DNA from: Methylocystis sp. IM3
GTDB taxonomy: Bacteria; Pseudomonadota; Alphaproteobacteria; Rhizobiales; Beijerinckiaceae
Length of the DNA stretch: 64,000 nt
Assembly (NCBI RefSeq): GCF_038070105.1
Contig: NZ_JBBPBZ010000001.1
Coordinates: 248,001-312,000, forward strand
Direction: 5' to 3'
Position 1 is the first letter of the stretch. Each line of letters begins with the position of its first letter. Of this stretch, positions 10,136-60,602 are shown one piece after another. Both the position numbers and the translations under genes were made by a program. Below the pieces are notes generated by a model. That model had not been told where the DNA came from. It saw nothing but the letters and a program-made list of their open reading frames with translations, and searched no databases.

Positions 10136-11581
10136 ATGCGCGGCGCCGATTTCATCGCCATCATGCCCTTCCTCGTACTCGGCGCCTCTCTAATCGCAGT
10201 CCTACTGGCGATTGCGTTTCGTCGCCGTCACGGAATAACCGCCACGCTAACGCTGCTTGGGCTTGGGCTTTCGCTGGTTTCCTTGTGGCCCGCCGCGTCT
10301 GTTTCTCCCGTTCAAGTGACGCCCCTTCTGCTCATCGACGGCTATGCGATTTTTTACCTCGGTCTCATTCTCGCCGCCAGTTTCGTCATTCTCTTGTTGT
10401 CGCATGGATATCTGGCGGTCCGCCACGATTCTCCCGAAGAGTACTATCTGTTCGAGGGCCTCGCGACAGTGGGAGCCGGCGCTCTCGTCGCCAGCAACCA
10501 CTTTGCTTCTTTCTTTCTCGGTCTCGAGATTCTCACCATTTCCTTGCTCGGGTTGATTGCTTATCCCCGCACAGAAGAAAGACCCGTCGAGGCCGGAGTC
10601 AAATACTTGATCCTCGCGGGGCTCTCTTCCTCATTCCTGCTTTTCGGCATGGCGCTTGTGTATGCTCGGCTGGGCACGCTCGAGTTCGCGCGCATAGGCT
10701 CCTTCCTAAATGCGTCCCAGGACGCCCCGTTCGACCTTTATTGGCTGACGAGCCTGGCGCTCATCATAACGGGGATTGGATTTAAGCTGTCGATCGTGCC
10801 CTTTCACATGTGGGCGCCGGATATCTACGAGGGGGCGCCGGCACCCGTGGCGGCGATTGTCGCGGCAATCTCGAAAGGCGCCGTGTTGGCTCTTTTCTTG
10901 CGCCTTTTTTTAACGACCGGCGCGCGCACCTCCAACTCGGTGGTCATATTGATCAACGTTTTAGTCATTGCATCGATAATGGTTGGCAACCTGCTTGCTC
11001 TTCAGCAAAACAACGTCAAGCGGATCCTCGCCTATTCGTCGGTCGCGCATCTCGGTTACTTATTAATCGCGTTTCTTGTCGGCGGCGATCTCGCAATCGA
11101 AGCTGTAAGTTACTATCTTGTCGCCTATTTCGTTGCTACTGTGGGCGCCTTCGGCGTTATCACGGTTCTTTCGACATCGGACAACGAGATGGAGATCGAG
11201 TTACTCGAGGACTATCGAGGCTTGATTTGGCGAAGACCCTTGATCGGCGGAGTTTTCGCCCTCACGCTGCTCTCCCTCGCCGGAGTTCCTCCCACAATGG
11301 GGTTTTTCGCAAAATTCTATGTTCTCAAGGCTGGCGTCAGCGCCGAGATGTGGCCTGCAGTCGCGGCTCTCGTCGTCGGCAGCATCATCGCCTTATTCTA
11401 TTATCTTCGGGTGATAGTAGCTTTGTGCGCGACACCTGGCGTTTGGCGGCACGATGCAAAGACGCCCTTCACAAGTGTCGTCGTGCTCGCTACGCTCACC
11501 TTGGCGTTGGTCGGACTCGGCGTCTTTCCAACGTCGTTAATTGACATGATCCAAGTCGTCGCACAAATGTCGATCAAATAG
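10136..11581 (+). CDS. nuoN: NADH-quinone oxidoreductase subunit N (NuoN)
   Basis: 481-residue third antiporter-like subunit, last gene of the operon. Shows FFLGLEILTISLLGL with the helix-5 glutamate, KLSIVPFHMWAPDIYEGAPAP with the conserved lysine, NVKRILAYSSVAHLGYLLI, and AGVPPTMGFFAKFYVLKAGV. Starts three bases after nuoM. I see no strong hairpin terminator directly after it; the next gene is convergent on the other strand. Confidence 0.95.
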   Translation: MRGADFIAIMPFLVLGASLIAVLLAIAFRRRHGITATLTLLGLGLSLVSLWPAASVSPVQVTPLLLIDGYAIFYLGLILAASFVILLLSHGYLAVRHDSPEEYYLFEGLATVGAGALVASNHFASFFLGLEILTISLLGLIAYPRTEERPVEAGVKYLILAGLSSSFLLFGMALVYARLGTLEFARIGSFLNASQDAPFDLYWLTSLALIITGIGFKLSIVPFHMWAPDIYEGAPAPVAAIVAAISKGAVLALFLRLFLTTGARTSNSVVILINVLVIASIMVGNLLALQQNNVKRILAYSSVAHLGYLLIAFLVGGDLAIEAVSYYLVAYFVATVGAFGVITVLSTSDNEMEIELLEDYRGLIWRRPLIGGVFALTLLSLAGVPPTMGFFAKFYVLKAGVSAEMWPAVAALVVGSIIALFYYLRVIVALCATPGVWRHDAKTPFTSVVVLATLTLALVGLGVFPTSLIDMIQVVAQMSIK

Positions 11582-11681
11582 CGCTTTCGATTGTAGAGCC
11601 AATGGAACCCGAGGCGCGGGCTGCTTTTCATTACCAGGCGCGGCGTAGGTCAGCGAGAACGATAGGGAGACCTGAGTCGCT

Positions 11682-12131
11682 TCATTGTCTTTCTGCCTCC
11701 GTTCGCGGAGCAGGAAGCAACTGCCATTTGAGCTCCTGTTTCGAGTCAAAATTGCAAGGCCTGTGAGCGATTACCTCTGCTTCACCGGGATACGCCTCGA
11801 GGCAACGTCCGGTATATTGGCTCGAGCTGGGCTCGACCAGCGAATTGATCGCCACAGGAGATTGGTATTTTACGTAACCGTTTAGTAGAGTCTCCAACTC
11901 GGATCGACGAACGTAAGCGGATAAATCATCCGGCCTCGCATACTTGTTCAATCGTGTTTCCAACGAACTCACTCGTTCATTCAGAGAGCGGACCATTTTC
12001 GTGAGACATTCAATCCTGGAATTGGCCGATCCTCTACGCAGATCGCAAGCGACTGCTTCTTGCGCAAGTGCTCCGGTCGAGGTCGACAGAAACATACCGA
12101 CAACTAGAGCGGAGGTCATGTTGCGTGACAT
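11682..12131 (-). CDS. Secreted coiled-coil protein of unknown function
   Basis: 149 residues. N-terminal signal peptide (hydrophobic VVGMFLSTSTGALAQ, with AQ-EA as a likely cleavage site). After it comes a short heptad-like stretch (CLTKMVRSLNERVSSLETRL, about residues 42-61) that should form a coiled coil, then a Cys-containing C-terminal half. I do not recognise a family. It faces nuoN tail to tail, with no partner in its operon. Confidence 0.55.
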   Translation of the reverse strand: MSRNMTSALVVGMFLSTSTGALAQEAVACDLRRGSANSRIECLTKMVRSLNERVSSLETRLNKYARPDDLSAYVRRSELETLLNGYVKYQSPVAINSLVEPSSSQYTGRCLEAYPGEAEVIAHRPCNFDSKQELKWQLLPAPRTEAERQ

Positions 12132-12628
12132 TGGGGGTCTCGTACATCATGGGGCGCGGTCTTGCCGCAATGCGGATCGCTCGCATCGAAAAATGCTGTC
12201 GTCGGGAGGTTTTGGGTTACTCCCACATTTTGTCGGAGTGAATTTTTCTATCGGACGGGCACACGATTTCGAAAGCTAGCTGCTCCGCCGGTAATCTGGG
12301 TTCCGCTTCCCAATCAGCAAGCGTAACAGGCATTCCTTCGGCTTCTTGTGATTCCGCTGGGAGATGTGGTCCGCGCTGCTCCGGGCATCATACGACGCCG
12401 CTGCGGAGGGGGCATCCGCCCGCGTCGGAGCCATGCCCTTACTGTATCGCGGGGGTGGCGCCCGATAAGACAAGGTCGGCCTCTTAGCTATCTCCCAAAC
12501 TACGGCGTTCGCCCTTGATCGAAATGTCCGAGCTGGGAACTCTCGGGGCAAAGAGGCCGCTGCGAGAGGTTTCGTGTGAATCAATTGGAAAACCAATTGC
12601 CGCAGCCGACCGAGGGCGCCCAAGAGGA
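12132..12628. other. Non-coding or degraded stretch
   Basis: About 500 bases between the secreted coiled-coil gene and the RibD-like stump. Several short frames are open but none has a recognisable family, a convincing ribosome binding site or continuity. The sequence upstream of the RibD-like homology (before about 12629) has no match to the intact reductase gene at 23173, so the break point is here. Confidence 0.4.
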
Positions 12629-12853
12629 ATGGTCGACGAGCCGTTTCTGACGCTTGCGCCGCAAATCGCAGGGAGAGGAATAGAGGCGCAGCGTCTGGGC
12701 CTCTTTGGCCATGGGAGGCTTCTTTCAGAAGCCGCGCCGTGGTTTTCGTTCCAGAGCGTCAAAAAGACGTCGGACCACCTGCTCCTGCGTTCCGCCTTTG
12801 CGAAAAATAGGCATGGCGCCGCGCTCCGGACAATGGCGACGCGGGGCGGATGA
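12629..12853 (+). pseudogene. C-terminal stump of RibD-like (dihydrofolate reductase fold) reductase
   Basis: About 74 residues from MVDEPFLTLAPQIAGRG to the stop, clearly homologous to the last 72 residues of the intact protein encoded at 23173-24054 (roughly three quarters identical by eye). The first about 220 residues are missing and the upstream sequence is unrelated. It converges on the intact AlkA-like gene exactly as the intact copy converges on an AlkA stump. See the finding on the reciprocal repeat. Confidence 0.8.
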
Positions 12854-13790
12854 ATCCCTTGGCTAACAGAGCGCCGCCGAGCGCGCAGAAATAGAGATAA
12901 CCCCGACGATCTCCAAAGCGCTCGATGACGTCGTCGAGCCACGCCGGATCGGACCGGCGCAGGAGACTGACGAGTCCGCGCGCCGCGCCGACGTCGCCTG
13001 GCGGGAAAATATCGAGTCGCCCGAAGCCGCGCAAAAGGACGAGGTTGGCGCTCCAGGGGCCGACGCCCGGCAGCTCGCGGAGCATGTGCAGCGCGTCCCC
13101 CGTCGGCGCCCGTGCAATATGCTCCTCGACCAAATCGCCCGCCTCGATAGCTCGCGCGACGTGGCGAAGCGCGTCCGCTTTTCGAAGGCTCAGCCCACAT
13201 GCCTTCAAGTCGTCAAGGCGAGCCTCGGCGATGGATCGGGCCGTCGGAGACGTATGGAAGGAGCGGCCCGCCTCGTCGATACGGCGGCCAAAGCGCCCGG
13301 CCAGCCGTGTTACGTTAGCTAAGCCGGCTTCGAGACTGACCTGTTGAAATGGCACCACATTCAAGAAGGTTTCGAAAAGACAGGCAAAACGAGGAGGGCG
13401 CATCCCCCGTAGCGCAACTGCTATCGAGCCGAGGGCTGGCTCTGCCTCGAGCAGTCGCTGAAGTGGCCCCGGATCCACATCCAGGCCCAGCATTCGTCGT
13501 AAAAGACTCTCAATCTGCAGCCCTGCTGCAGAAGATCCGCCGAGCATCGAATAGCGCACATCTGGCCGGTCGATGGTTCCCCGGTTTTCAACTGCGGTTA
13601 TCGCGAAACGGTCTTCTATGCGAAAGACACGTAGGTAACGCCTGCCTTCCCACTGGTCGATGCTGTTTGTAGGTCGACGCTGCAGAACCCGCACAGTTGC
13701 TTCGAGATGGAATGGTGCTCGCGTAGGAAGGCGCCGCTCGCCTGAGCTCCGTCCTAACGGGGGTTGTGTGCGCTTTTGATCATCAAACAT
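12759..13790 (-). CDS. DNA-3-methyladenine glycosylase II-like (AlkA family, HhH-GPD)
   Basis: 343 residues. Base-excision repair enzyme that removes alkylated purines. The helix-hairpin-helix LRELPGVGPWSANLVLLRGF is followed by FPPGDVGA, whose Asp is the catalytic residue in AlkA. N-terminal part fits the AlkA N-domain (FHLEATVRVLQ). The last about 35 codons overlap the reductase stump and are probably read-through: the family ends near LLAKGFIR. The ATG at 13790 lacks a clear ribosome binding site, and a start a few codons inside is possible. A diverged fragment of the same gene lies at 24005-24232. Confidence 0.82.
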   Translation of the reverse strand: MFDDQKRTQPPLGRSSGERRLPTRAPFHLEATVRVLQRRPTNSIDQWEGRRYLRVFRIEDRFAITAVENRGTIDRPDVRYSMLGGSSAAGLQIESLLRRMLGLDVDPGPLQRLLEAEPALGSIAVALRGMRPPRFACLFETFLNVVPFQQVSLEAGLANVTRLAGRFGRRIDEAGRSFHTSPTARSIAEARLDDLKACGLSLRKADALRHVARAIEAGDLVEEHIARAPTGDALHMLRELPGVGPWSANLVLLRGFGRLDIFPPGDVGAARGLVSLLRRSDPAWLDDVIERFGDRRGYLYFCALGGALLAKGFIRPASPLSGARRHAYFSQRRNAGAGGPTSF

Positions 13791-14194
13791 CGGATCACCC
13801 TCCGCGCCGATCGTGACTGTCCTGGCACAGGCGGGAGCGTAGCAGAGCGGCGCAAAAGCCCTATTTCAGCGCCCCGTGGGTGGCGTGTTGCCGCGGGAAA
13901 GACGCACAACCGAACCCAACTAAGCAGGCTATTTAGGCCCCTGCATCGTCGCCGGCGCCCGCTTTGCCGCCAGAGGCGCGCGGACCAGCATAATTTTTAT
14001 CCGCCCCCTTTCTCGCTGGTCGGGACGGGGCGCTTGGATCGTACTGCCGACGCTGGAAGCCTGGCGAAGCGTTCGATCCACGCCGCAAACATGGGCGTCA
14101 CCTTGCGCCTTCTTCGCGAATGCGATTGAAGACCCGAATAACTTCGCGAGGTCCCGCTCTATTAGTGCACGGCTTGGGATGACGACCCGGCACC
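13791..14194. other. Stretch without a supported gene
   Basis: About 400 bases upstream of the AlkA-like gene. A 121-codon frame is open on the plus strand but is Arg/Pro-rich with no family resemblance. Given the IS debris that follows, probably degraded sequence. Confidence 0.35.
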
Positions 14195-14452
14195 ATCAGT
14201 GAGGCGAGGAGGATTATAGCGGCCACATATCGACGCGGCGATCGTGAATTGCAAGGGCTTCTCTATGAGGCGGCGACAGTGATCCTGACCCGCAATTTAG
14301 CCGCCAGCACGCGGACATGGGGGCTCGCGCTCAAACAGAGGATTGGCGTCTAGCGAGCTGCGGTCGCAGTCGCGCGCAAGCTGGTGGTTATTATGCATGC
14401 GATAGTCAGGAAGGGAACCTTCTTCGATCGAATGGCGGGAATCGCCGCATGA
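14195..14452 (+). pseudogene. IS110-family transposase, C-terminal remnant
   Basis: Reading the frame of codon 14234 gives RGDRELQGLLYEAATVILTR, then an in-frame TAG at 14351-14353, then RAAVAVARKLVVIMHAI and a stop at 14450-14452. This is the conserved C-terminal region of IS110/IS116 transposases. The few residues before 14234 are in a shifted frame. No N-terminal half exists nearby. A dead fragment. Confidence 0.7.
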
Positions 14453-14856
14453 CAATTTAGGGATAGCGTTCGTTCCGAGTGCGCAAGAACGTCCCCTGCC
14501 GGGACATGGGTCGATCCATTCCGTTTAATGGGATGCGCCGCTGCTTCCAGCGGAGTGCGTCATCCACATTTGAAGGCTCTTCTCGCGAAGCCCCATCGTG
14601 CGTCGACTGATGTCGACCACGAAAACGACCCTGCACTTGGCATACGCGTCCGACGCCTTGCAAAATCGCTTGACACGAAAATCGCGATTAGACGACTCCA
14701 TCACCCCAAGATCACCGAACCGAAAGGCAAACGCCATGGTCTCGGGTGTCCGAAGTCATACCCACTGCCACTCAGACGCCCCGCCAAGGCTTGAATTTCC
14801 ACAGAGGGAACCTATGTAAAAACAAGGGTGTAGGATCGCCTTTTGGAAGATGCCAG
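14453..14856. other. Stretch without a supported gene
   Basis: About 400 bases between the IS110 remnant and the NepR-like gene. Short frames on both strands (up to 88 codons) show no recognisable family. May hold the promoter of the NepR-like gene, but I cannot point to elements. Confidence 0.35.
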
Positions 14857-15129
14857 ATGGAACTAAGGAAGGCCAACCTTACACCCGAATTGGCCGGGAA
14901 TATTCGAACGCAGCTCGGAAGGGCACTGCGCAGTGTATATAAAGCGGCTCTCGCTCGCGAGCCGCTATCTAGTGCCCTGGCGACACTGCTCCTACAGGTA
15001 GCGTTGGTAGAGCTTCTGCGAGGAAAACGTGAACAAGAACTCGCCGCCAGCGACGAACCGAGCGCCTGCCCCGTGCCCAGGGAGCGGAGCATCTGTGAGT
15101 CATCAAGTCCCGGCCATGGACCTCGCTGA
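14857..15129 (+). CDS. NepR-like anti-sigma factor (tentative)
   Basis: 90 residues from ATG 14857. The core ELAGNIRTQLGRALRSVYKA followed by ALAREPLSSALATLLLQ resembles NepR, the anti-sigma factor of the alphaproteobacterial general stress response, which binds sigma EcfG and is released by PhyR (family pattern: IG-x-x-LR-x-x-YD then EPVP-x-RF-x-x-LL). The match is partial: the EPVP and RF positions are altered. No ecfG or phyR lies nearby, although these are usually adjacent. It could be an orphan paralogue or a decayed copy. The frame is open further upstream to 14746, without support. Confidence 0.42.
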   Translation: MELRKANLTPELAGNIRTQLGRALRSVYKAALAREPLSSALATLLLQVALVELLRGKREQELAASDEPSACPVPRERSICESSSPGHGPR

Positions 15130-15223
15130 CCAGCTGGCCTATTTCGCTCCACTTCTGTCTGGCGGTAGCAAAAGGCCGAGCTAAGTCCAAGCGAGAACAA
15201 GCTTAACCGTTTCAACGAGTCCC

Positions 15224-15433
15224 GTGCCACGGATTTTCGACAGGGGAAGGACGGGGGAAGGAAGCCAGACTGATCGCCTTGTCATGCTCGGCGCCGCTGA
15301 AAGCTATGCGCGCTGGATCTTGCGGCTATTGGAAAAGAAATTCGTCGAGCTTGAGATCGTAGAGGCGGCGGGCGACAGCCCGATCGGTCGTGGCGAAATC
15401 CCACCGGGCATCGTCCTACGTGAAGCCGCTTGA
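15224..15433 (+). pseudogene. IS630-family transposase fragment
   Basis: 69 codons. The stretch YARWILRLLEKKFVELEIVE corresponds to the conserved ARWTLRLLADKLVELEIVE region in the N-terminal third of one IS630 subgroup. What follows does not continue the transposase (LKP-W and catalytic parts absent). A short isolated piece just outside the left end of the next IS. Confidence 0.5.
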
Positions 15434-15689
15434 AGGGATAAATCGAGTTTCGGCGCCCGCCTACATTTTAGCGAAGGCCGCTGAAAATGATCCGAGGCGG
15501 CGGCCACCCGAGACGAGCCATGGCTTCGACGCCGTGATGAGAATGGGTCCTGCTGCTTCGGAGTCTTGCCATCGACGCGAATGACTGCTTCATGGTCGGG
15601 GTACTTTGGGTATCCAATCCGAATACAAGTTTGCGGCCCGACGCCTCGCGCCCAATGCCGGGCTCCTCTCGGTTCGTATTGGATGCCGC

Positions 15690-17430
15690 ATTGTCTCGCC
15701 GAAAATATTCCTGAATGCTGAACCGTTGCCTCACGTAATTTGCTCCCGAACAGCGGAGGAGCGCGGGGACGACGATGAGGCGATTGAGCATGGCAACGCG
15801 TAAGGAACTGACTTCGGCTTTGGCGCAACGCTACAGGGTGGCGAACCGGGTGGAGAGAAGCCGGATTCTCGACGAGTTCGTTGGCTTGAGCGGTTTCCAT
15901 AGGAAGCATGCGATGCGGTTGCTGCGCGAAAATGGTCAGGCGTCGGCCCGGCGCGCGCGTCGGCGGATTTACGACGAGGCTGAGCGAAATGCGTTGATGC
16001 TGCTTTGGGAAGCCGCGGATCGGGTGTGCGGCAAGCGCCTGAAGGCCCTCCTGCCGATCTTGCTCGACGCGATGGAGCGGCACGGTCATATTGAGCTGGC
16101 GCCCGAAATTCGCGCCAAATTGCTATCGATGAGCGCGGCGACGATCGATCGACCGAACACTGCGACCAATCCGGGAGCAAATCGGTCGCCCGCGGCGTCG
16201 GCCTGCGGCAAGCGCCTTACGACGCAGCATCCCCGTGCGCACATCAGCGGAGTGGGACGATCCGGCACCCGGTTTCGTCGAGGCCGACCTTGTCGCTCAC
16301 AGCGGTCCTTCAGCGCGTGGCAGTTTCATCCAGACGCTCGTCCTCACCGACATCGCGACCGGGTGGACGGAATGCGCGCCGCTTCTCGTGCGAGAACAGA
16401 ATCTGTTGAGCGCTGTGCTCACGGAACTACGGAAGCAACTCCCCTTCACACTTTTGGGCTTGGACACGGATAACGACACCGTGTTTATGAATGAGACTTT
16501 GAAGACGTATTGCGAGCAAGCTGCAATCGTCTTCACGCGCTGTCGCCCTTATCGCAAAAACGACCAGGCCTTTGTCGAGCAGAAGAACGGCACTGTGGTC
16601 CGCCGAATGGTTGGTTACCGCCGCTTCGAAGGGCTCGAAGCGGCTGGCCTTCTCGCTCAGCTCTATCGTTCGGCACGTTTGTTTGTGATTTTTTTCCAGC
16701 CGTCGTTCAAACTGATCGGAAAAGAGCGTGACGGCGCGCGCGTCCGCAAGAACTACAGCGCCCCGGCAACGCCGCATCAGCGGCTGATCGCTGACGCGCG
16801 GGCGCCGGATGCAATGCGCGCCCGCGTCAATGAAATCTATGCCAGCTTAGACCCGGTTGCCTTATTGCGCGATATCCGAGCCATACAGGAGCGCTTGGCC
16901 AGGCTTACCGACGCGGCGCCAGCCAGCGATCCATCTGCGGCGCCGCCGATCGACCAGTTTCTGGCCAGCTTGCGAACAGCCTGGAAAGAGGGCACGGGCC
17001 GCCCGACTGATAGACCGATCATCAAGAAGAAGAGAGAGCGGCGACGCCCCGATCCGCTTCTCGAAGCGACGCCGCACCTCCGACAATGGTTCGAGGCCGA
17101 GCCGTGGCGGACAAGCAGTGAACTTCTATCCAAGCTCCAGGCGGAATGCCCAGGAACCTATCCGGCCAACGTGCTCCGGACTCTTCAACGGCGTCTTAAA
17201 TCCTGGCGTAGCGAGGAGGCGGCTGCGCTCTTGTTTGGCTCGATAGAATGCACGCGAGAGCCGGACTCGGTTGTCCGGTCACCAGGAGGCGCCCGTTACA
17301 TGGCTGAGGAGGCCGGTCGTTGCGCAACCCCGGCCAGCTCCACGACCGGCCTCCTCAGTCCCCTAGACTCGGGAGCAAAATAGATGAGGCAACGGCAGCT
17401 GGATTCAGGAGCATCGTTACGTGAGGCAAT
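15690..17430. mobile_element. Integrase-type (rve) insertion sequence with long imperfect ends
   Basis: About 1.74 kb. An inner 25-27 bp inverted repeat is clear: 15723-15749 and 17369-17395 share GTTGCCTCA and TTTGCTCCCGA with five differing bases between. The similarity continues outward: both sides have CCTGAAT, and a second outer motif of type ATTGYCTCRC is at 15690 on the left and, inverted, at 17430 on the right. So each end seems to hold two copies of a TTGCCTCACG-like site, as expected for a transposase binding twice per end. Carries one transposase gene with a single frameshift. Confidence 0.6.
15775..17383 (+). pseudogene. Integrase-core transposase, split by a +1 frameshift
   Basis: N-terminal HTH part (RKELTSALAQRYRVANRVER, FHRKHAMRLLRENG) lies in frame 1; the DDE integrase core lies in frame 2: FVEADLVAHSG (first Asp), LGLDTDNDTVFMNE (second Asp), KNDQAFVEQKNG (Glu). 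Reading across, one extra C at 16153-16154 in ATCGACCGAAC breaks the frame; removing it gives a smooth product through RTLRPIREQIG. Otherwise the gene looks full length (about 530 codons). It resembles the ISNCY-type integrase transposases common in Methylocystis-like genomes. Likely inactive unless the indel is a sequencing error. ATG 15775 or 15790. Confidence 0.75.
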
Positions 17431-17515
17431 ACGTCTTCTCACGCAGATTATCGCGCCATAAATGGTTGCGTTATAAGGGCAAATCTCCCCTCACGGCGCG
17501 CCCTAGGAGGTTCGG

Positions 17516-17995
17516 GTGAAGTATCCGAAGGTAGTCAAAAAGACCAAGGGCGCCGCCCCCCAACAACAATACGCCGCCCTCCCGTGGCGTCGTAAGGGGA
17601 AAGCGTTAGAAATAATGCTCATCACTTCGCGAGAGACGCGCCGGTGGGTCATTCCCAAAGGCTGGCCCATGAAAGGGCGCAAATCTCATGCAACCGCAGC
17701 TCTCGAAGCCATCCAAGAGGCGGGGCTTCTCGGCAAAATAGACAAAACGACGATTGGCGCCTTTCATTATCAAAAGAAATTGGGGAACGGCGCGACGGTA
17801 TTATGCCGCGTGGACGTTTTTCCATTGCGTGTTGTGCGGCAGCGGAAGAATTGGCCCGAGAAGCGACAGCGCGCTACAAAATGGTTCTCGGCCAGTAAAG
17901 CCGCCCGAATGGTGGACGAACCGGAACTCACCAAAATGATAAGGGGTTTTGAAAAGCTCGCGACGAAAAGCTTCAAGAAGGCCACCGCTACATGA
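17516..17995 (+). CDS. NUDIX hydrolase-like protein with degenerate Nudix box
   Basis: 159 residues from GTG 17516 behind a good TAGGAGG. N-terminal part (QYAALPWRRKGKALEIMLI, then TRRWVIPKGWPMKG) is typical of the diphosphoinositol-polyphosphate-phosphohydrolase-like Nudix proteins of Rhizobiales. The Nudix box should read RExxEExG, but here reads LEAIQEAG: the Arg and the first of the paired Glu are lost, so metal binding and catalysis are doubtful. Lys/Arg-rich C-terminus. Flanked by IS elements on both sides. Confidence 0.7.
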   Translation: MKYPKVVKKTKGAAPQQQYAALPWRRKGKALEIMLITSRETRRWVIPKGWPMKGRKSHATAALEAIQEAGLLGKIDKTTIGAFHYQKKLGNGATVLCRVDVFPLRVVRQRKNWPEKRQRATKWFSASKAARMVDEPELTKMIRGFEKLATKSFKKATAT

Positions 17996-18019
17996 GCGAT
18001 GTGCGATTTTGACGGTCAA

Positions 18020-18350
18020 TTAGACGTTGTTTGCTTTGGCGTAGGAAAGCGCGGCAGCGAGCAGGTCTGAGGGCTCATCGAGATTTGCTCGTAGCGGCAG
18101 GTAGAGAGACCCACTCGTGCATTTTTGGTTTGCCGTAGCGCGCGAAATGCCTCGCGCGTCCTCACCCAATAACGGTCTTGGCGAGGTCGGCGGGAATTTT
18201 GAGTGCGACTTCGCGTCCGAAGACGCAGGCGGTCATTTTGCGCCCAACGAAAATCGCCGGACCTCCGAACATCATGCCGCGAAGAGCTTTCGGTTCGATT
18301 GCGGCGCGTATGTTCATAAAGTGCGTCGAACAGCGACTGACAAGGTGCAC
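18020..18350 (-). pseudogene. TfoX N-terminal-domain protein, broken
   Basis: The frame from about 18320 reads RGMMFGGPAIFVGRKMTACV, the TfoX_N signature, then meets a TGA after KTVIG (about 18160), continues in the same frame as HFARYGKPKMHEWVSLPA, and must shift frame to give the usual C-terminus LLAAALSYAKANNV and the stop at 18020-18022. So there is one stop codon and one frameshift, and the first about 20 residues of the family are not convincing. These small proteins are related to the competence regulator Sxy/TfoX; function in alphaproteobacteria is unknown. Confidence 0.6.
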
Positions 18351-18567
18351 ACAAGGTGCATGAACGATGCCGTCGGCCGATGAGAGATTTTGTTGGCTTT
18401 GTCGCGCTGAAAAACAAAATTAGAGCTCCGCGCCAAGCTGAGGATGCGGATGGGTGCTGAATCGTCTCAGCGGACGAAATCGAGGCAATGGGGCATCTCC
18501 GTCCCATCGACCGCAACGGCGCCTTTGAGCCAATCAAATCGCCTCACTCGCGTCGTGTCGCCTACTC

Positions 18568-19648
18568 GACTTATTGATCCGGTACGGTGAAATCTTTAGG
18601 CGGCGTAACGCACCCGAGGGTTATGAAAATAGGCTTTGACGCGATGGGGCGAAGCTTCGACCGTATTCATGTGACCCTCGGCTGTTTTCTGAGTTTGAGC
18701 TTGGTCCGCACCGCGACCTTGGCGACGATGGCGTGTTTGAGGTCGGCGTTGAGTCGTTCGTCGAGATTCAGCTCAGGCGCGTAGCTCGAGAGATAGAACA
18801 CTTCGATCGCGTCAGTGCGCTCTGCGAGTCACGCCTTGACGATCTTCCAATGATGGACGCGCAGATTGTCGAGGATGACAAAATTTTTTCGCGCCCGCGT
18901 TCTTAATCAAGGCCTCAAAAACTTCGATCAACCTCTCGGCGTTGAATGTATCATCGATGATCATCCACCTCGCCTTGCCCTGGTTCGTCGCCCTGGCGAT
19001 CATTGACAGTTTCTGACGAGTTCCGGGGGTAAAGGCGATCGGCGTTTCGCCCTTGGGCGGATAACTGCGACCGCGAACGTCGGTGTTCACGAGGCCGGTC
19101 TCGTCACCCCAATGCATCTCGCCGCCTTCGGCTTTGGCTCGTTGTTCGAACGTCGGATATTCTTCGTCGAGCCACCGCTTGATCGCCTCCGGACGCTGCT
19201 CGTAGGCCCGCTTGATCGGCTTTTGCGGCGTGAAGCCCCAACGTTTGAGATAATTGCCGACCGCGCGCACGCATAGCTTCAGACTGAACTCGCGCTCGAT
19301 CAGCTCCGTCACCGCTGCGCGCGTCCACATACGCGCAGCTCGGCCTCCTCCTCAGGCTTGGGTTTGCGGCCTTCGCCTTGCTTCCTGCCGCGGGTTTTCC
19401 GCCTCAGTGCAGCGGCGACGCCTGCCTCGAACCGATCGATCGCCAAACGAACCGCCGGATGGGATAGCCCCGTCAACTCGACAATCCCCATCACTCTCTC
19501 GCACTTCCGGAAGAATCGGATCACTTGTTTGCGAGGCTCTAACAGAGCCTCAGAGGTTTGCTTGCGCGCGTCTTCCTTTTCCATTCCCGAGAAATAGCAT
19601 CACATCCGAACAGTACAAGATATTTTCGTGCCGGATTTATAGGCTAGC
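18568..19648. mobile_element. IS630-type insertion sequence, degraded
   Basis: Bounds are approximate. The left side at 18570 (ATCCGGTACGGTGAAATC) and the inverted right side near 19640 (ATCCGGCACGAAAATATC) are similar enough to be terminal inverted repeats around the 1 kb transposase remnant. IS630 elements duplicate TA on insertion; I cannot assign it with certainty. Confidence 0.5.
18597..19584 (-). pseudogene. IS630-family transposase, multiple lesions
   Basis: Pieces in order: N-terminal HTH (19584-19310: GIVELTGLSHPAVRLAIDRF); a frameshift with loss of about 20 codons near 19325; central part 19330-18895 (FTPQKPIKRAYEQRPEAIKR, GDETGLVNTDVRGRSYPP with the first catalytic Asp); a frameshift in an A-run/T-run at about 18888 just before ILDNLRVHHW with the second Asp; an in-frame TGA in place of Trp (about 18832); ELNLDERLNADLKHA with the third acidic residue; another frameshift near 18670 leading to the proper end HRVKAYFHNPRVRYAA. 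Clearly dead. Confidence 0.8.
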
Positions 19649-19750
19649 GCCTGGAGCCAACGAGGACTTGCGAGTGCCTGTGGCGTTCATCAAGAAAAGC
19701 AAGAAGCGATCTAATTGCGAACATCATTGCTTTGCGATGAATGTTCGGCG

Positions 19751-19948
19751 ATGGCGTTGAGTAGCGCGATTTACATGCCAGCCATGGTGGCCGTGCGACA
19801 CAATCCAGACCTCAAGGCGAAAGATGGTCAGCTCCTTCGTGCCGGAAAGCCTGGGAAACTGGCCCTCACAGTTGTCGTGCGTAAGCTCATTGTAATGGCA
19901 AATGCTCTGTTGCGAGACAACCGCAAATGGTCACCAATCATGGCTTGA
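19751..19948 (+). pseudogene. IS110-family transposase, C-terminal remnant
   Basis: About 65 codons: SSAIYMPAMVAVRHNPDLKA, then AGKPGKLALTVVVRKLIVMA and NALLRDNRKW. This is the standard C-terminus of another IS110 subgroup, different from the remnant at 14195. No upstream transposase part is found; the sequence before it is unrelated. Sits directly next to the IS630 remnant. Confidence 0.75.
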
Positions 19949-20166
19949 CCAAAACGGATACTCATCTTCGCTCCTTAAGCGCGACGATGAACCAGAAAGC
20001 CTCCCTTCCTCAAATCGAACCCTGTCTTAAAGGTGCTGAACCGGAACAGTCGTCGCCATCCGCGCTGCCCTGGAAGCCGCGTCGAGTTCGATAAGAGAGA
20101 CGATGCCGCGCACGAGAGGCTTACAAAGAAAGGGGCCGCGGACGAGCCGGGCTGAAGGAGCGCCAT

Positions 20167-20370
20167 ATGAAGCATTGGGACTTCCGCTCTCGAATGAGAC
20201 GTCATCGGCCAGAATGGCGAGGTGTCCATTCCCAGCCGAATATCGACGACGCAGATTTAGTTTTAGTCGCGGTGATCGGTGCCTGCTTCCTGATCGCCCT
20301 GCTGCTGGGCGCGCTATGCTATGAAGATGGGTCTTCATCACTTTTCGGAGAGCTGATTGCCAAGGTTTAG
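20167..20370 (+). CDS. Small inner-membrane protein, unknown
   Basis: 67 residues. Basic, Arg/His/Trp-rich N-terminus followed by one strong transmembrane helix (LVLVAVIGACFLIALLLGAL) and a short tail. GAAGGAG lies seven bases before the ATG, which supports translation. No recognised family. Neighbours are IS remnants on the left and the pterin cluster on the right. Confidence 0.45.
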   Translation: MKHWDFRSRMRRHRPEWRGVHSQPNIDDADLVLVAVIGACFLIALLLGALCYEDGSSSLFGELIAKV

Positions 20371-20866
20371 CCCTCGGGGTAGAGCAGGACAAGCGAAAGA
20401 AAATCAAGCTGTCCGGTAGTCCCGGAATTAAAGTCGACGAGATCGGCGAGCGATCGTGCCCAATCTGCGGCGGGCTTTCGAGGTCACGGCCGCGTAGCCG
20501 CCAAAGGCGTCGATTAGCTTGGCTTCGGCGGCGTAAAGTTCCCGCTGCCGTGCTGACGCCTCGCAGAACCGATCCTCGGCGGCTTCGCGTATCCGTCAAA
20601 ACGCGGCTGTGAAAACGCCCCTCGTCGGCGTCGGTGACAGTCTACCAGACTACGCCAGGCCGATGGGTGGCCACACACACGGCCCACCGCCTCCGAGGGT
20701 GAGCGATGTCACAGCCCAAATTGAAAGGAATGGCTGCCGCGCTACCTCTCATCCGCATGGGGGATCCGCACAGCGTCAATAGCCCGCGGTAGCCGCTTTG
20801 GCGCATGAGTTGTGCGCCGGCTCATATGCGAGATTATGTGAGAGACTTGGAGAAGGGGACGCATCC
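20371..20866. other. Stretch without a supported gene
   Basis: About 500 bases. On the minus strand, 20600-20460 reads openly as AAEDRFCEASARQRELYAAE and onward with a natural residue mix, but has no start, no ribosome binding site and a stop near 20455; it could be a gene remnant of unknown family. Nothing else seen. Confidence 0.3.
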
Positions 20867-21214
20867 ATGTCGGTTCTGGCCGAAAAGACCTGCACGCCTT
20901 GCCGAGGCGGCCTTCCGCCTCTGGAGCGCAATGAGGCCGAGGCTCTTCGAAGGAATGTCAAGGACTGGCAATTGCTGGACGATGCGCACCGTATCGAGCG
21001 CAGGTTTGACTTCAAGGATTTTCGGGAGGCTTTGTGCTTCGTCGCCGGAGTCGGCGAGCTCGCGGAAGCTGAGCGTCATCACCCTGACGTCTCATTTGGG
21101 TGGGGCTATGGGGTTGTCTCGCTGCAAACCAAGAAGATCAAGGGATTGCATGAGAACGACTTCATCATGGCGGCAAAGATCGACCAACTGTTCGACCGAA
21201 TGTATCCCCCCTGA
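20867..21214 (+). CDS. Pterin-4a-carbinolamine dehydratase (PCD/PhhB)
   Basis: 115 residues from ATG 20867. Dehydrates 4a-hydroxytetrahydrobiopterin, recycling the pterin after aromatic amino-acid hydroxylation; the family also has roles in other pterin pathways. Motif AEAERHHPDVSFGWGYGVV contains the active-site His-His-Pro-Asp, and TKKIKGLHENDFIMAAKID is the conserved C-terminal helix with the third His. The frame is open to 20798, but homology starts with the later ATG. First member of a pterin gene group here (folB and folK follow). Confidence 0.85.
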   Translation: MSVLAEKTCTPCRGGLPPLERNEAEALRRNVKDWQLLDDAHRIERRFDFKDFREALCFVAGVGELAEAERHHPDVSFGWGYGVVSLQTKKIKGLHENDFIMAAKIDQLFDRMYPP

Positions 21215-21340
21215 GCTGCTAAGCGGCAGATATAGGAGTGCAACCGGGATCCCCTTGCAATATCGGACTAACTAATTTTGCGTCCGCAGGGTCCGTCATC
21301 TCGCAGGGCCGTCTACGTCCGCTCTATCGGAGGATGTATC

Positions 21341-21652
21341 GTGAACAAGCGTTTCGCTCTGGCTGTGGTGGCTTCGTTCCCTTTTCTTGGGTCTTCCTTT
21401 TGCGACTGGGCAGCGCCGTTCACCCATGCTGAAGATCACCATGGATTCTCTGTTGAGGATAGAGCAGCATTTACAGACGCGCGGATCGCGGCATTAAAAG
21501 CGCGGTTAAAGTTGACCTCTGTGCAGGAAAATAGATTGACCGGCGTTCGACACGGCGCTCCCACGACACCGCAAAAGAGCGTTTTGAGCGAATGGCTGAC
21601 GTGGACGACGCCGAAGCAGCTGGTTTCCTCACCGGCCGGATTATTTACGTAG
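21341..21652 (+). pseudogene. Truncated periplasmic LTXXQ (Spy/CpxP-like) protein
   Basis: From GTG 21341: signal peptide (KRFALAVVASFPFLGSSF), then DARIAALKARLKLTSVQENR, which matches the first LTxxQ repeat of the Spy/CpxP-type alphaproteobacterial proteins. After ENRLTGV the sequence loses the family pattern, and the second repeat and the rest (usually 150+ residues) are missing. Probably a frameshifted or truncated gene; a short functional secreted protein cannot be excluded. Confidence 0.5.
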
Positions 21653-21682
21653 ATGAAGGAGCGCCATCTTTTGGAGACGCCG

Positions 21683-22042
21683 ATGGATCGCATTCTCATT
21701 AGAGAGCTCTCAGCGCGTTGCATCATCGGCCTCCGCCCGGATGAGAGGGAGGCGAAGCAGGATGTCGTTGTCAGCTTGGCCCTCTCGACGGATTTGAGCC
21801 ATGCCGGCAAGAGCGACGTATTAGACGATAGCGTCGACTACCGAGCGATCAAAAAACGGGTGCTCGCGCTGATGGAGGGCTCCCACTTCCATCTGCTCGA
21901 AGCTCTCGCCGAAGCCATCGCCGCCGCTTGCCTCGAGACTGCGGGAGTGTCCGAGGTGCGCGTGACCTTGGACAAGCCCGGAGCGTTGCGCTTTGCTCGC
22001 TCGGTCGCCGCTGAAATCGTCCGTCGAAGGCCAGGGCAATGA
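21683..22042 (+). CDS. folB: Dihydroneopterin aldolase
   Basis: 119 residues from ATG 21683, seven bases after TTGGAG; an in-frame ATG at 21653 has no such site. Converts 7,8-dihydroneopterin to 6-hydroxymethyl-dihydropterin and glycolaldehyde. Typical parts: RCIIGLRPDEREAKQDVVVS (start of the FolB fold, with the E/R pair), SVDYRAIKKRVLALME, FHLLEALAEAIAAACLE with the substrate-binding Glu, and VRVTLDKPGAL with the catalytic Lys. ATGA overlap with folK shows coupling. Confidence 0.93.
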   Translation: MDRILIRELSARCIIGLRPDEREAKQDVVVSLALSTDLSHAGKSDVLDDSVDYRAIKKRVLALMEGSHFHLLEALAEAIAAACLETAGVSEVRVTLDKPGALRFARSVAAEIVRRRPGQ

Positions 22043-22575
22043 CGCGGGCCTACATCGGGGTCGGTTCGAACATTTCGCCCGGAGCAAACATCAAGACGGC
22101 GATACGGCTGTTAGCACGCCAAGTCCGGCTGGTTCGCTTCTCCACATTCTATCGCACGCCGGCTGAGGGCCGCCCTGAGCAGCCCGATTATATCAACGGC
22201 GTGGTCGTAATCGAGACCGGCCTTACGCCAGAATCACTCAAGCATAAGGTGCTTCGCCCGATCGAGCACCGCTTAGGGCGTCGCCGAACTGACGACACGT
22301 TTGCGCCCCGCCCCATTGATCTCGACCTTCTGCTGTATGGTTCTCAGCAGGTGCAGACGACGGATCTTCGCCTTCCGGCCGAAGACATCGAGAAGCGGGC
22401 CTTTGTTGCAATCCCCCTGTCCGAAGTGGCGCCAGATCTGATGCTCCCGGGAACCGGCATAAGCATTCGTGATATCGCTGCGAAATTTACCAATTTTCAT
22501 ATGACCCGGCTCACGTTGTCAAACGAACTTCGAGGTTACTGTGCAAAGTCGGGAGGGACCGACGAATGCAGATAA
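22039..22575 (+). CDS. folK: 2-amino-4-hydroxy-6-hydroxymethyldihydropteridine pyrophosphokinase
   Basis: 178 residues. Transfers pyrophosphate from ATP to 6-hydroxymethyl-dihydropterin, giving the substrate for dihydropteroate synthase. Motifs: YIGVGSNISPGANIKTAIRL, FYRTPAEGRPEQPDYINGV (pterin loop), and RPIDLDLLLYG with the two Mg-binding Asp residues. Length is slightly above the usual 160, with an extra C-terminal tail. folP is not nearby: the group is PCD-folB-folK, not the common folP-folB-folK. Confidence 0.93.
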   Translation: MTRAYIGVGSNISPGANIKTAIRLLARQVRLVRFSTFYRTPAEGRPEQPDYINGVVVIETGLTPESLKHKVLRPIEHRLGRRRTDDTFAPRPIDLDLLLYGSQQVQTTDLRLPAEDIEKRAFVAIPLSEVAPDLMLPGTGISIRDIAAKFTNFHMTRLTLSNELRGYCAKSGGTDECR

Positions 22576-23172
22576 GGCGGAACAATCCATTAACGAGTTT
22601 CGAACGCATAAGGCCGCTGGGCTCGGCACCCTAACCATCGAAATTTGATGGTCTGGCAACGGGGCGACGAGCTAGCGTATCACGCCAATTCGTTCGGCAG
22701 ATGGGTTTTGGTTGTAGTTTCTTGAAAGATCGCCGCCGGCAGCCCTCGAAATACTGGCGCGGTTAAGCGTGCGTTTTCTCACCCCAGATGTGTCGCGCTA
22801 TACGTGGTGACCGCTGATATCATTCGCCGCCACGCGACGCCATGCGTAGCGTCTTTATTGACCTCGAGGCTGCAGTGCGGCTGCTGGCCGCAAAGACGCG
22901 CACGCCGGCCGAACGGCCAATGCTGTGGCTGAATCGCATCCCATCTGCCGGAGGGCCTGGGAGTTAGCCTCCCAGTCTTCGCCTGAGCAGATGGTTCCGC
23001 TCATCCTGACGAACGACCTCCACTGTGAATTCCGAAGCCGAGAGGACGGCCCATGAGTGCGAGGGCTTCCATTTAATGGCGTGCCGGGGATGGCTGCGGT
23101 GGCTGCGGTCATAAATCAGCGCGAGAGCGCCCGCGACGAATTGCTTGCTGGGCGCGGGAAGGAGACACTCAG
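22576..23172. other. Stretch without a supported gene
   Basis: About 600 bases between folK and the RibD-like reductase. No frame of recognisable family. Two direct TGGCTGCGGT units occur at 23091-23110, upstream of the reductase. A promoter for the reductase gene is expected here, but I do not see consensus boxes. Confidence 0.35.
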
Positions 23173-24054
23173 ATGCGTCTTGTCACCCTTTATGAGAGAG
23201 AAAAACCGCGAGCTCCGCTGCTACCCACCGAGCTTCAGCAACTCTATGGAGGCGACCTTTCCTTCTCTATGGCGTCGGTTGGCCGACCTTATGTGATCGG
23301 CAATTTCGTCGAAACGATCGACGGAGTTGTGTCCTTCGGCCTCCCAGGCCGCTCGGGGGGTGAGGAGATCAGCGGCGGCAAGCCTGAGGATTTATTCACC
23401 ATGGGGCTCCTCAGAAGCATGGCGGACGCCGTCTTGTTTGGGTCCGGATCGCTACATGCCGCGCATGGACATTTGCGCACCCCCGCGTTTGTCTATCCGC
23501 AGGCAAAAGAGCTTTTCGCACAGCTTCGCGCAAGGCTCGGCAAGCCGCTCTTGCCGCTCAGCGTGATTCTGACCTCGAGTGGGAATATTAACCTCGACGA
23601 AGCGACCTTTCACACGCCAGGTTTGGCGGCAGTCGTCATTACAACTAACGAGGGAGCTTTGCGGCTTGCCCGTGCACATCGCGACAAGCTCGGTTCGGTC
23701 GCCGTGCGCTCGACAGGGGAATCAGGGACGACGACACCGGCGGCGGTTTTAGGGATCCTCGCTGACGAGTTCCGCGTTCGCCTTCTGCTGCACGAGGGAG
23801 GCCCCACGGTCTTCGGCATATTCCTGGCTGCGAACATGGTAGATGAATTGTTCCTGACGCTCGCGCCACAAATCGCAGGGAGGGGAGTGGAGGCGCAGCG
23901 TCTGGGCCTCGCCGAACAAGCGTTGTTCCTTCCGGAAACTGCGCCGTGGTTTACGCTCCAGAGCGTCAAACAGGCGTCGGACCACCTGCTCCTGCGCTAC
24001 GCCTTCACGCAAAGTAGCTATGGGGCCGCGCTCCAGACGATGGCGAGCGGATAA
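23173..24054 (+). CDS. RibD C-terminal-domain reductase (dihydrofolate reductase fold)
   Basis: 293 residues. NADPH-dependent reductase domain as in RibD (pyrimidine reductase of riboflavin synthesis) and stand-alone homologues. Seen: YVIGNFVETIDGVVSFG (N-terminal strand with the substrate-site Asp), ADAVLFGSGSLHAA, LLHEGGPTVFGIFLAANMVD (glycine-rich NADPH loop) and ELFLTLAPQIAGRG. There is no deaminase domain, so it is not a complete RibD. Substrate unknown; the pterin genes upstream make a pterin or related compound possible. Its last 72 codons are duplicated at 12629-12853. Confidence 0.85.
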   Translation: MRLVTLYEREKPRAPLLPTELQQLYGGDLSFSMASVGRPYVIGNFVETIDGVVSFGLPGRSGGEEISGGKPEDLFTMGLLRSMADAVLFGSGSLHAAHGHLRTPAFVYPQAKELFAQLRARLGKPLLPLSVILTSSGNINLDEATFHTPGLAAVVITTNEGALRLARAHRDKLGSVAVRSTGESGTTTPAAVLGILADEFRVRLLLHEGGPTVFGIFLAANMVDELFLTLAPQIAGRGVEAQRLGLAEQALFLPETAPWFTLQSVKQASDHLLLRYAFTQSSYGAALQTMASG

Positions 24055-24232
24055 GTCCCTTGGTCAGCAGAGTGCCGCCCAGCGCGCAGATATAGAGATA
24101 GCCGCGGCAATCGCCAAAGCGCTCGATGATGCCGTCGAGCGATGCTGGATGGGACAGGCGCAGGAGACTGACGAGGCCGTGCGCCACGCCGACATTGCCT
24201 GGCGGAAACACATCGAGTCGCCCGAAGCCGCG
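24005..24232 (-). pseudogene. C-terminal stump of AlkA-like glycosylase
   Basis: Reads GFGRLDVFPPGNVGVAHGLV and on to CALGGTLLTKGLIR, homologous to the last about 60 residues of the intact AlkA-like protein at 12759-13790. The catalytic Asp of FPPGDVG is Asn here (AAT for GAC). Homology ends abruptly near 24232, where unrelated sequence begins. Overlaps the 3' end of the reductase gene on the other strand, the same convergent arrangement as at the left copy. Confidence 0.85.
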
Positions 24233-24240
24233 TGCGTTGT

Positions 24241-25018
24241 ACGTCTATCTTGTTAGGCTCCACAACCCCGCCCCAGGATTCGCGCATGCTGCTCCTCCGA
24301 CCTCGGCGTCGGGAGGAATGACCACGCCGATAGGCACACGGCGGTAGATCGAAAGGTCGGTATTATAACGCGCGCACATTGTGGCGGCAAAGCTGGTCCC
24401 GACATCTCCGACGTTCGGTCGTAGGCGGCGCGACACGCTCCGTCGCATGGGCTTCTTTTGCGGCGAGCGTTTCGATTCGGATCGGCAGGCGCGCAAAGGT
24501 CGCCCGCTGCCGTGGCGGGCGACCGGACTCTTTCTTGCGCGGGAAGCTGGCCAAATAACGCCCTTCGCGTTTAGGACGGGTCCCTAACGTCTGTCGATGC
24601 TGGGAATATGGTTGTTCAACCGGCCAACGACAAATACCACCGTTTCGCCCGCGATCTCCGCCTCGCCAGCCTGAAACTTCTTCTGCAAATCGACGCCTGT
24701 CACCACGAGCTTGTCATGTTCGGCTTTATGCGCGGCAGAGTAGAGTCGCCGAGCGCATTTACCAATCGAAAGATTTCGCGATGCATCGTGGGTGCTGAGT
24801 TCGTGCCAAATTGTTCTTTTGTCCAGGTCATGAGCGACATTAAGTTTCCTCCTCAGTCAGCGTGTGGTTTCGGGTTCGACCCATCGCCACGCCGAGGGAG
24901 AGAGGCGCCGATGCCGGCGAGCGGCTGCTTGATTCTTGCGCCTGGACTGAAATGGCTTATCTTTTCCGACACGCAACACTGCGTTCTGCTCGGGCGCGAG
25001 CATAAATGAGACTTGGCG
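24241..25018. other. Long stretch without a supported gene
   Basis: About 780 bases. Open frames on both strands (for example 24608-25009 plus, 24245-24496 minus) have no family resemblance and no good ribosome binding site. A GGGTTCGACCC at 24875-24885 resembles a tRNA T-arm but has no acceptor or anticodon partner. Probably degraded sequence beyond the repeat end. Confidence 0.35.
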
Positions 25019-25387
25019 ATGACTATCACACTCAACCACACGATCGTTCCTGCTCACAATAAGCAAGACGCCGCGGAATGGTTTGCCGACGTTTTCGGCT
25101 TGTCTATCGAGAACAAAAGCGACCACTTCGCGCCCGTGCGGGTGAATGAAACGCTGACTCTGTTATTTTCTGACGCCCCGTCGTTTGACGCCCATCATTA
25201 TGCGTTCCACATCAGCGACCGCGAATTCGACGCCATTTTCGGCCGCGTCAAGGAGAAAGGCGCGAGCTTCGGGAGCGCGCCCTGGAGCCGGACTGATAAA
25301 AAGCTCAATGACTGGAGCGGGGGCCGCGGCGTCTATTTCGAGAGCCCTGACGGCCATCTCATGGAATTGATGACAGTTCCCCAATAA
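25019..25387 (+). CDS. VOC-superfamily (glyoxalase-fold) protein
   Basis: 122 residues from ATG 25019. One VOC module pair: LNHTIVPAHNKQDAAEWFAD at the N-terminus, HHYAFHISDREFDAIFGRVK in the middle, and GRGVYFESPDGHLMELMTV at the end, whose His and Glu are the usual metal ligands (first ligand His in LNHTIVP). Such proteins are glyoxalases, dioxygenases or fosfomycin-type resistance proteins; the substrate cannot be assigned. Monocistronic, converging with a pseudogene. Confidence 0.85.
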   Translation: MTITLNHTIVPAHNKQDAAEWFADVFGLSIENKSDHFAPVRVNETLTLLFSDAPSFDAHHYAFHISDREFDAIFGRVKEKGASFGSAPWSRTDKKLNDWSGGRGVYFESPDGHLMELMTVPQ

Positions 25388-25412
25388 TGGGTTCAGGACA
25401 GGCTCGGGCTGA

Positions 25413-59341: not shown

Positions 59342-59745
59342 TGAAATCCTCCCCGATGACGAGTCTCCCTCCCCTTTTAGAGGAGCGCATCTGGAGCATG
59401 AGCTAGTTCACGCTGGCTGGCAAGAAGCGGGGTTAAAACAAAACCGACGACGCGCAATAAGCGAAGCCGCTACTTTTGTTCCAAGTCTGGCATCCAGATA
59501 ATCGCCGCCATGGTTAAGTCGCGGTTCATTGCTTCTGCTAACCGACCTCGCATCGGCAGACGGCGCAGGATCGCCCAAACGCACGTTTAGATACATTAGC
59601 ACTACTTTGGCAGATTTTTGAGAGGTCCTGCACTTTTGGGATTGAACGAAGCCGCTATCGCGGCGGGAGGGGCGAGGTCGCGTGATTGGCCTCCTGTCTG
59701 AGAGGATTTGGGCGTTGCAACCCACCTCAGACAGGAGGTTTCCAG
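59342..59745. other. Gap upstream of smbP and of the IS91-type unit
   Basis: About 400 bases. No gene. A 13-base imperfect repeat GACAGGAGG precedes the recombinase ATG. The 5' boundary of the IS91-like unit is somewhere here; the first plausible junction is near 59620-59700, where GAGGTCC occurs (compare the repeat at 63631). Confidence 0.3.
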
Positions 59746-60596
59746 ATGGCCGAGATCAGCCCTCTGCGTCGTCGCATGATCGAAGACATGACGGTCCGCA
59801 ATCTTTCGCCGGCGACCCAGCAATCCTACATCCACGCCGTCGCGAGGTTCAGCCAATATTTCGGGCGTTCCCCTGATCGCCTCGGGCTGGAGGACGTCCG
59901 CGCCTACCAGGTGCATTTGATCTCGAAGAGCATATCCTGGGCGTCGCTCAACCAGATCGTCTGCGCGCTCCGCTTTTTCTACGGGGTGACGCTCGGCTGC
60001 GACGATCCCGGAGCGGATCGCCTATGCCCGCGAGCCGCGCAAGCTCCCGTCCGTGCTGAGCACCGACGAAGTGGTCCGTTTTCTCGAATCCGTCTCCAGC
60101 CTCAAAGCGCGCATCGCGCTCACCACAGCCTATGCCGCGGGACTGCGCGTGTCGGAGGTGATCGGCCTGAGGGTAGCCGACATCGACAGCGACCGCATGG
60201 TCATCCGGATCGAGCGCGGCAAGGGCGGCAAACGTCATGCTGTCTGAGCAATTGCTCAGCATTCTGCGCAGCTATTGGCGTCTCGCGCGGCCAGAGAGCT
60301 TCTTGTTTCCCGGTCGCGACAAGAATAAGCCGATCGAGCAAACCGTCCTGCACGCCGCCTGCCGTTCGGCGCGTGCGGCGGCTGGCATCGACAAGCGCGT
60401 GAGCGTCCATATCCTGCGACACAGCTTCGCGACGCATCTCCTGGAGAGCGGCGTCGACATTCGCATCATCCAGGTGCTGCTCGGCCACGAGCATCTGTCG
60501 ACGACGGCGCGCAACACGCAGGTCTCGACGCATCTGATCAGCGGGACGAAGAGCCCCCTGGACCGCCTTTCCCTGGAGGTGACGCCGCCCGAGTGA
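59746..60596 (+). pseudogene. Tyrosine recombinase (integrase), two frameshifts
   Basis: Three pieces: 59746-60000 (N-terminal SAM-like core-binding domain: RMIEDMTVRNLSPATQQSYI, LNQIVCALRFFYGVTLGC); a shift near 60005 into IPERIAYAREPRKLPSVLST and then [20 protein letters not shown] (catalytic Arg); a second shift near 60235 (RHAV to [14 protein letters not shown]) and then [20 protein letters not shown], ending [17 protein letters not shown] with His/Arg and a final Asn-Thr where the catalytic Tyr should be. The family often lies directly before IS91-type transposases, as here. Not functional as read. Confidence 0.8.
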
Positions 60597-60602
60597 CCGG
60601 GC

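Follow-up and report, generated by a model that had tools for sequence, protein, structure and literature searches.

Reciprocally truncated copies of a reductase–glycosylase gene pair flank an 11.2-kb interval on a putative plasmid of Methylocystis sp. IM3

Introduction

Reciprocal gene loss after duplication or acquisition, Campbell-type single-crossover integration and the mosaicism of repABC megaplasmids in Methylocystaceae are the described processes closest to the arrangement analysed here. It lies in a stretch of 64,000 nucleotides from Methylocystis sp. IM3 (the window; positions 248,001 to 312,000 of contig NZ_JBBPBZ010000001.1, called C1 below), where two direct repeats bound an interval of 11.2 kb. 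Each repeat consists of the overlapping 3′ ends of two convergent genes, one for a RibD_C reductase (R) and one for an AlkA-like glycosylase (A). A is complete only on the left and R only on the right; a stump of R remains on the left and a stump of A on the right.

The likeness to reciprocal loss lies in two copies of a linked pair having kept different members, the lost ones being present as decaying 3′ stumps. The locus differs in that the copies are ∼19% apart and a third copy occurs on another plasmid, which points to copies from different plasmid lineages rather than to a fresh duplicate; that it works like reciprocal loss of duplicate gene pairs is a comparison, not a proven mechanism. 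With Campbell-type integration it shares the flanking direct repeats and the prospect that a crossover between them would release a circle on which R and A are both complete. However, the repeats here are 81% identical, and no recombinase, replication or empty-site evidence was found. From megaplasmid mosaicism it shows no essential difference: several repC-bearing plasmids, identified here by RepC matches, coexist in one methanotroph with many diverged segments in common, and the R/A locus is one of many such diverged repeats. Two plasmids have been reported for Methylocystis strain SC2 (PMC3794950), and a title cited in that paper calls them repABC-containing.

The reading that we favour, with middling confidence, is that the two repeats mark diverged plasmid copies of one R–A pair, each trimmed to a single gene.

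Results

The repeats and their genes

Aligned by blastn on the same strand, the repeats have 328 of 403 columns identical (81.4%, given elsewhere as 81%) with 6 gap positions. The expect value (E) was 2e-111 when the two 2.7-kb stretches around them (11501-14200 and 22701-25400) were compared, and 9e-109 in a self-comparison of the window. In the former comparison, no homology was found past either repeat end and the edges were sharp. Apart from this pair, the window matched itself at E ≤ 1e-3 in a 55-bp inverted repeat only. A preliminary description of this DNA had proposed two homologous direct repeats, ∼80% identical by eye and built from the 3′ ends of convergent genes, and had suggested aligning 12.5-13.2 kb with 23.7-24.4 kb; the result was one long match with sharp ends at the identity expected. 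The features concerned are as follows.

12629-13031, plus strand: left direct repeat (3′ ends of R and A), 81% identical by blastn to 23836-24232
12629-12853, plus strand: R stump, the last 74 codons and stop of the RibD_C reductase, without an internal stop on translation; 69% identical in amino acids to R residues 222-292
12759-13790, minus strand: whole A, AlkA-like DNA glycosylase of 343 amino acids (Pfam AlkA_N 43.3 bits, HhH-GPD 37.4 bits)
23173-24054, plus strand: whole R, RibD_C-domain reductase of 293 amino acids (Pfam RibD_C 52.2 bits)
23836-24232, plus strand: right direct repeat, 81% identical by blastn to 12629-13031
24005-24232, minus strand: A stump, the last 75 codons and stop, in an open frame; 69% identical in amino acids to A residues 241-341

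Pfam matches and translation agree with the earlier view that only the glycosylase is complete on the left and only the reductase on the right. In the left copy the 3′ ends of R and A overlap by 95 bp, and because the genes overlap tail to tail, a kept gene preserves the tail of its partner. Both whole genes point inward, to the 11.2-kb interval between the repeats. Crossovers computed at three shared 15-mers gave, in all three cases, circles of 11,201-11,207 bp with R of 293-295 and A of 328-343 amino acids, both frames open, as the preliminary description had predicted for an excised circle. Its statement that the stumps would stay behind on the chromosome has to be amended, because repC lies on this replicon, which we take to be a plasmid.

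A third copy on another plasmid

The genome (4.9 Mb) is assembled in six contigs, and the window corresponds to C1:248001-312000. Contig C6 (155 kb) holds a third copy, made of a whole A (82% of residues identical) and a remnant of R that starts at about codon 242, where the left stump starts at 222, and has a 1-bp insertion. As the C6 copy demonstrates, the combination of a complete A and an R stump arises elsewhere too, with another break point. Its identity is 83.2% to the left copy over 1098 columns and 82.4% to the right copy over 336 columns. Over 177 shared A positions outside the overlap, 26 differences separate left and right, 21 right and C6, and 19 left and C6, so that the sequences suggest no clear sister pair among the three.

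We also set the three copies of A against 20 distant homologues as a root; read by eye, the comparison resolved no sister pair. Within 59 codons, right and C6 agree at four amino acid sites at which left differs; at three of these, left looks derived and the other two copies ancestral, and one site is unclear. By eye, a few tail residues in the rooting comparison are common to the left and right A.

Condition of the stumps

Neither stump has a stop or frameshift inside the repeat (left R, 74 codons and stop; right A, 75 codons and stop). One TGA and one TAG were counted in the translated right A stretch. The TGA terminates the stump itself, at the position where the C6 A also ends, while the left A reads further; the TAG lies at 24245-24247, just beyond the right repeat.

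With C6 as the third sequence, changes at codon positions 1 and 2 versus position 3 numbered 18:7 on the stump branches and 8:14 on the intact branches (Fisher p 0.020). Left out of these counts are the overlap between R and A, positions at which no two copies agree, the stretch ahead of 12690, which has no C6 counterpart, and the R remnant on C6 (3,3,3). From this difference, small as the numbers are, the stumps have probably been released from selection for some time. The pooled ratio of nonsynonymous to synonymous rates was 0.35 for stump versus intact sequence; between the intact A of the left and C6 copies it was 0.19 over 288 codons and 0.10 over the same 59 codons. We estimated the neutral share of the stump branch at 0.38 (95% interval -0.06 to 1.05), with bootstrap probabilities of 0.033 for a share of at least 1 and 0.048 for a share of at most 0; codon counts are small enough to make every decay estimate weak, and the last value separates partial decay only marginally from none. 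When full neutrality since the split of the copies was simulated, both stumps were free of stops with a chance of 0.076, frameshifts not counted.

Decay of the stumps falls short of what full neutrality from the split onward predicts; the copies therefore probably diverged before they were truncated, a conclusion that we hold with modest confidence. This order of events would fit copies from different plasmid lineages and would count against tandem duplication in place. It likewise bears on the suggestion in the preliminary description that the incoming DNA came from a diverged relative or that the event is old: diverged lineages fit the incomplete decay better than amplification in place does.

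Plasmid background

Of the six contigs, five (C1, C3, C4, C5 and C6) have matches to RepC (PF03428), and the search gave none for C2; that of C1 lies at 65311-65883 (216.7 bits). C2 has two matches to the AMO family (PF02461), which includes particulate methane monooxygenase subunit A. On these matches we take C1, which measures 360 kb and bears repC, to be a methanotroph plasmid.

The five plasmids were compared with themselves and with each other, and matches of at least 250 bp at 65-90% identity were chained, copies of insertion sequences included. C1 contains 16 such diverged repeat pairs, counting the R/A pair, and shares 15 with C6; the counts for all plasmid comparisons add up to 183. 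Several segments of the window at 25-55 kb have counterparts on C6 at 71-88% identity. An 81% repeat on C1 is therefore unremarkable in itself, diverged repeats being the background of these plasmids.

Search for intact pairs and empty sites

The genome sets searched for A and for R overlap and each includes the genome of strain IM3 itself; strongly decayed stumps could escape the stricter of the limits given here. Outside this genome, no close A was found in 101 relatives (E ≤ 1e-3) or in 397 genomes of the order (E ≤ 1e-18), and no close R in 397 genomes of the family (E ≤ 1e-3) or 398 of the phylum (E ≤ 1e-15). The best other R, at 51%, is in genome G179, the remaining matches in the family being weak. 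It adjoins an archease-like gene, and no A match occurs in its 18-kb surroundings.

A scan of GTDB 220, limited to two peptide patterns and one genome per species, found distant A homologues at 22 loci. Of these, 20 are 51-62% identical and include loci of Myxococcota and Steroidobacteraceae, one is 43% identical, and the last is a short fragment at 78%. No R stands beside any of the 22 in the DNA fetched. Among plasmid records, all 47 that match R and all 68 that match A are below 60% identity, and viral contigs held neither gene. The genomes searched thus yielded no intact R–A pair, no site with stumps only and no free circular form.

The flanks were compared with the five plasmids of the strain and 24 loci of relatives. 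The left flank (11582-12650) had no match there, and the sole match of the right flank (24233-25008) was 64 bp at 78% on C1.

A gene order that spans the right repeat

Two genes on either side of the right repeat enter the argument.

20798-21214, plus strand: pterin-4a-carbinolamine dehydratase (PCD; Pfam Pterin_4a 92 bits), inside the interval
25013-25387, plus strand: VOC/glyoxalase protein (Pfam Glyoxalase 34.9 bits), in the right flank; in Methylocystis heyeri it is the second gene after PCD

On the M. heyeri plasmid NZ_CP046053.1, genes for PCD, a DUF4167 protein and the VOC protein follow each other directly. In the window, PCD and VOC have the same order and orientation, with PCD inside and VOC outside the interval, and no relative of the DUF4167 protein was found between them. 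If this order is ancestral, the right repeat would not be a boundary between foreign and resident DNA. We regard the link as moderate evidence. The synteny comparison proposed earlier thus gave neither a site with stumps only nor an intact pair in relatives, and it brought out this order across the right repeat.

Origin of the arrangement

We propose that diverged copies of a convergent, 3′-overlapping R–A pair came to the plasmid pool from different plasmid lineages. Every surviving copy would have kept one gene, presumably a working one, and would carry the 3′ end of the partner as a passenger: a tail of R with A on the left, a tail of A with R on the right, and a shorter tail of R with A on C6. 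The apparent reciprocal truncation would then reflect redundancy followed by complementary loss, possibly through recombination and deletion in plasmid DNA rich in insertion sequences.

This reading builds on direct observations, namely the copies, their divergence and break points, the partial decay of the stumps and the third copy, and it asks for nothing beyond what is common on these plasmids, diverged copies both within one replicon and between replicons. The C6 copy, the lack of a sister pair, the repeat background of C1, the pattern in the stumps and the PCD–VOC link of M. heyeri all speak for it. Several points weigh against it. The geometry, direct repeats with whole genes facing the interval, is what integration of a circle predicts, and by our own estimate separate losses would produce it in about 1 case in 8 (1/2 for orientation, 1/4 for the retention pattern). 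The intact ancestral pair was not found in the genomes searched. The PCD–VOC link comes from one organism: among 19 VOC loci outside the IM3 genome, inspected with at most 1.5 kb on either side (seven further VOC places had no locus), PCD lies near VOC in 1, in genome G025, apparently M. heyeri, as its VOC locus has the coordinates and matches of that on NZ_CP046053.1. The VOC protein of M. heyeri is 66% identical, whereas those of the nearer relatives G021 and G367 and of C6, at 80-81%, have no PCD beside them; for the C6 place, no PCD was found on the whole contig.

The explanation that comes next is possible, though we consider it unlikely: a single crossover integrated an 11.2-kb circle with an intact R–A pair into a plasmid that held a doubly truncated 400-bp R–A remnant. 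The inward-facing whole genes are its strongest point, a geometric one, and the sharp-ended direct repeats and the three crossovers that each give a circle with both genes open agree with it; a diverged donor would also fit a divergence that is apparently older than the truncation. However, the acceptor must already have been cut at both ends, and the crossover must have joined partners that are 81% identical today. RepC, the only replication family searched, has no match in the interval (C1:260629-272232), there is no step in base composition, and neither an empty nor a circular form was found in the genomes searched. The C6 copy shows the same state, whole A with R stump, with a different break point, and the PCD–VOC order of M. 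heyeri spans the supposed boundary. Hence, from the proposal in the preliminary description of a circle inserted by single crossover or a tandem amplification, the geometry is retained; the circle is left without a relative, among the genomes searched, that has only stumps or an intact pair, and the tandem is disfavoured by the incomplete decay of the stumps.

A further form of this idea, which we think improbable, is that the 11.2 kb is a plasmid module that can still recombine, having entered by recombination where A and R meet tail to tail, between partners of 81% identity, so that excision would rejoin both genes on a circle and leave the stumps behind. Were integration of a circle true, the locus would be a natural case of strongly diverged sequences recombining to build a plasmid. 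Among the papers listed on recombination between diverged sequences and on plasmid integration, none concerned this case in its title or abstract opening.

Still less probable is a tandem duplication in place, or the insertion of a terminally redundant linear piece slightly longer than one unit of a circle or array, with the stumps made at the split and the 19% difference accumulated afterwards. Here a single event would make both stumps, and the relaxed changes seen on their branches speak for it. The prediction is nevertheless a neutral share of 1, against the estimate of 0.38 and the bootstrap value given above for at least 1; stop-free stumps were infrequent in the simulation of full neutrality, and the distance of the C6 copy to each C1 copy does not exceed that between the two C1 copies. 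The incomplete decay disfavours duplication in place.

Rearrangement by insertion sequences, in which repeated insertions and adjacent deletions trimmed the outer sides of an inherited tandem duplicate pair, could draw on the three insertion-sequence remnants in the interval, and it is the least probable of these explanations, since no detected remnant abuts the breaks at 12629 or 24232.

If diverged copies with complementary loss are indeed the origin, the locus illustrates clearly, on a small scale, how convergent genes with overlapping ends leave stumps as passengers when plasmid copies get trimmed, and how such stumps can mimic an excisable island.

Other features of the window

The interval holds, besides PCD, the following features.

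13998-14703, no strand assigned: IS110-type remnant directly upstream of A; 83% identical to unannotated Methylocystis plasmid DNA and 72% to annotated IS110 transposases over ∼14108-14650
15687-17463, plus strand: ISNCY-type insertion sequence with a broken reading frame; 73% DNA match to an ISNCY family transposase, open reading frames 15775-16473 and 16235-17383 in different frames
17516-17995, plus strand: NUDIX-like protein, a weak match (Pfam NUDIX E 0.09, 13.2 bits against a cut-off of 21.1)
18570-19643, minus strand: IS630-type remnant; HTH_33 and DDE_3 in 18812-19330, 87.6% identical to plasmid C5 of the strain, similar plasmid DNA annotated as IS630
21653-22042, plus strand: FolB-like protein (Pfam FolB 107.5 bits)
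22039-22575, plus strand: FolK (HPPK; Pfam HPPK 101.9 bits, TIGR01498 above cut-off)

The insertion-sequence remnants and pterin genes listed for the interval in the preliminary description were recovered. Its NUDIX gene is below the cut-off, and its NepR-like gene, which we take to be the open reading frame 14746-15129, has no Pfam match at E ≤ 1. The 55-bp inverted repeat of the self-comparison (17304-17358, 80% identical with itself) lies within the ISNCY-type element. Genes for PCD, FolB, FolK and the RibD_C reductase form a pterin-like set at 20798-24054. This FolK is unusual for the genus, with matches in 26 of 28 genomes that are all 39-42% identical. Scans of the window for tRNA genes and Rfam families gave no matches, and base composition, read in 1-kb windows, has no step at the interval.

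On the left flank, the plasmid-borne nuoN-like gene at 10136-11581 is not the usual one of the genus: 27 of its 28 genomes, among them G367 of the same species, match it at only 31-35%, and G025 alone also carries a broken match at 61%. Between the right repeat and VOC, six-frame translation shows a frame-broken remnant on the minus strand (24580-24860), presumably a bacteriohemerythrin pseudogene, judged by eye from a motif. Farther right, stretches at 39941 and 49627 adjoin each other on C6 (C6:95898; 86-88% identical); on C1, 9.7 kb lies between them and the junction is exact, so that either C1 gained this DNA by insertion or C6 lost it by deletion. A 2.4-kb element at 59632-62079 has three 93% copies on plasmid C4.

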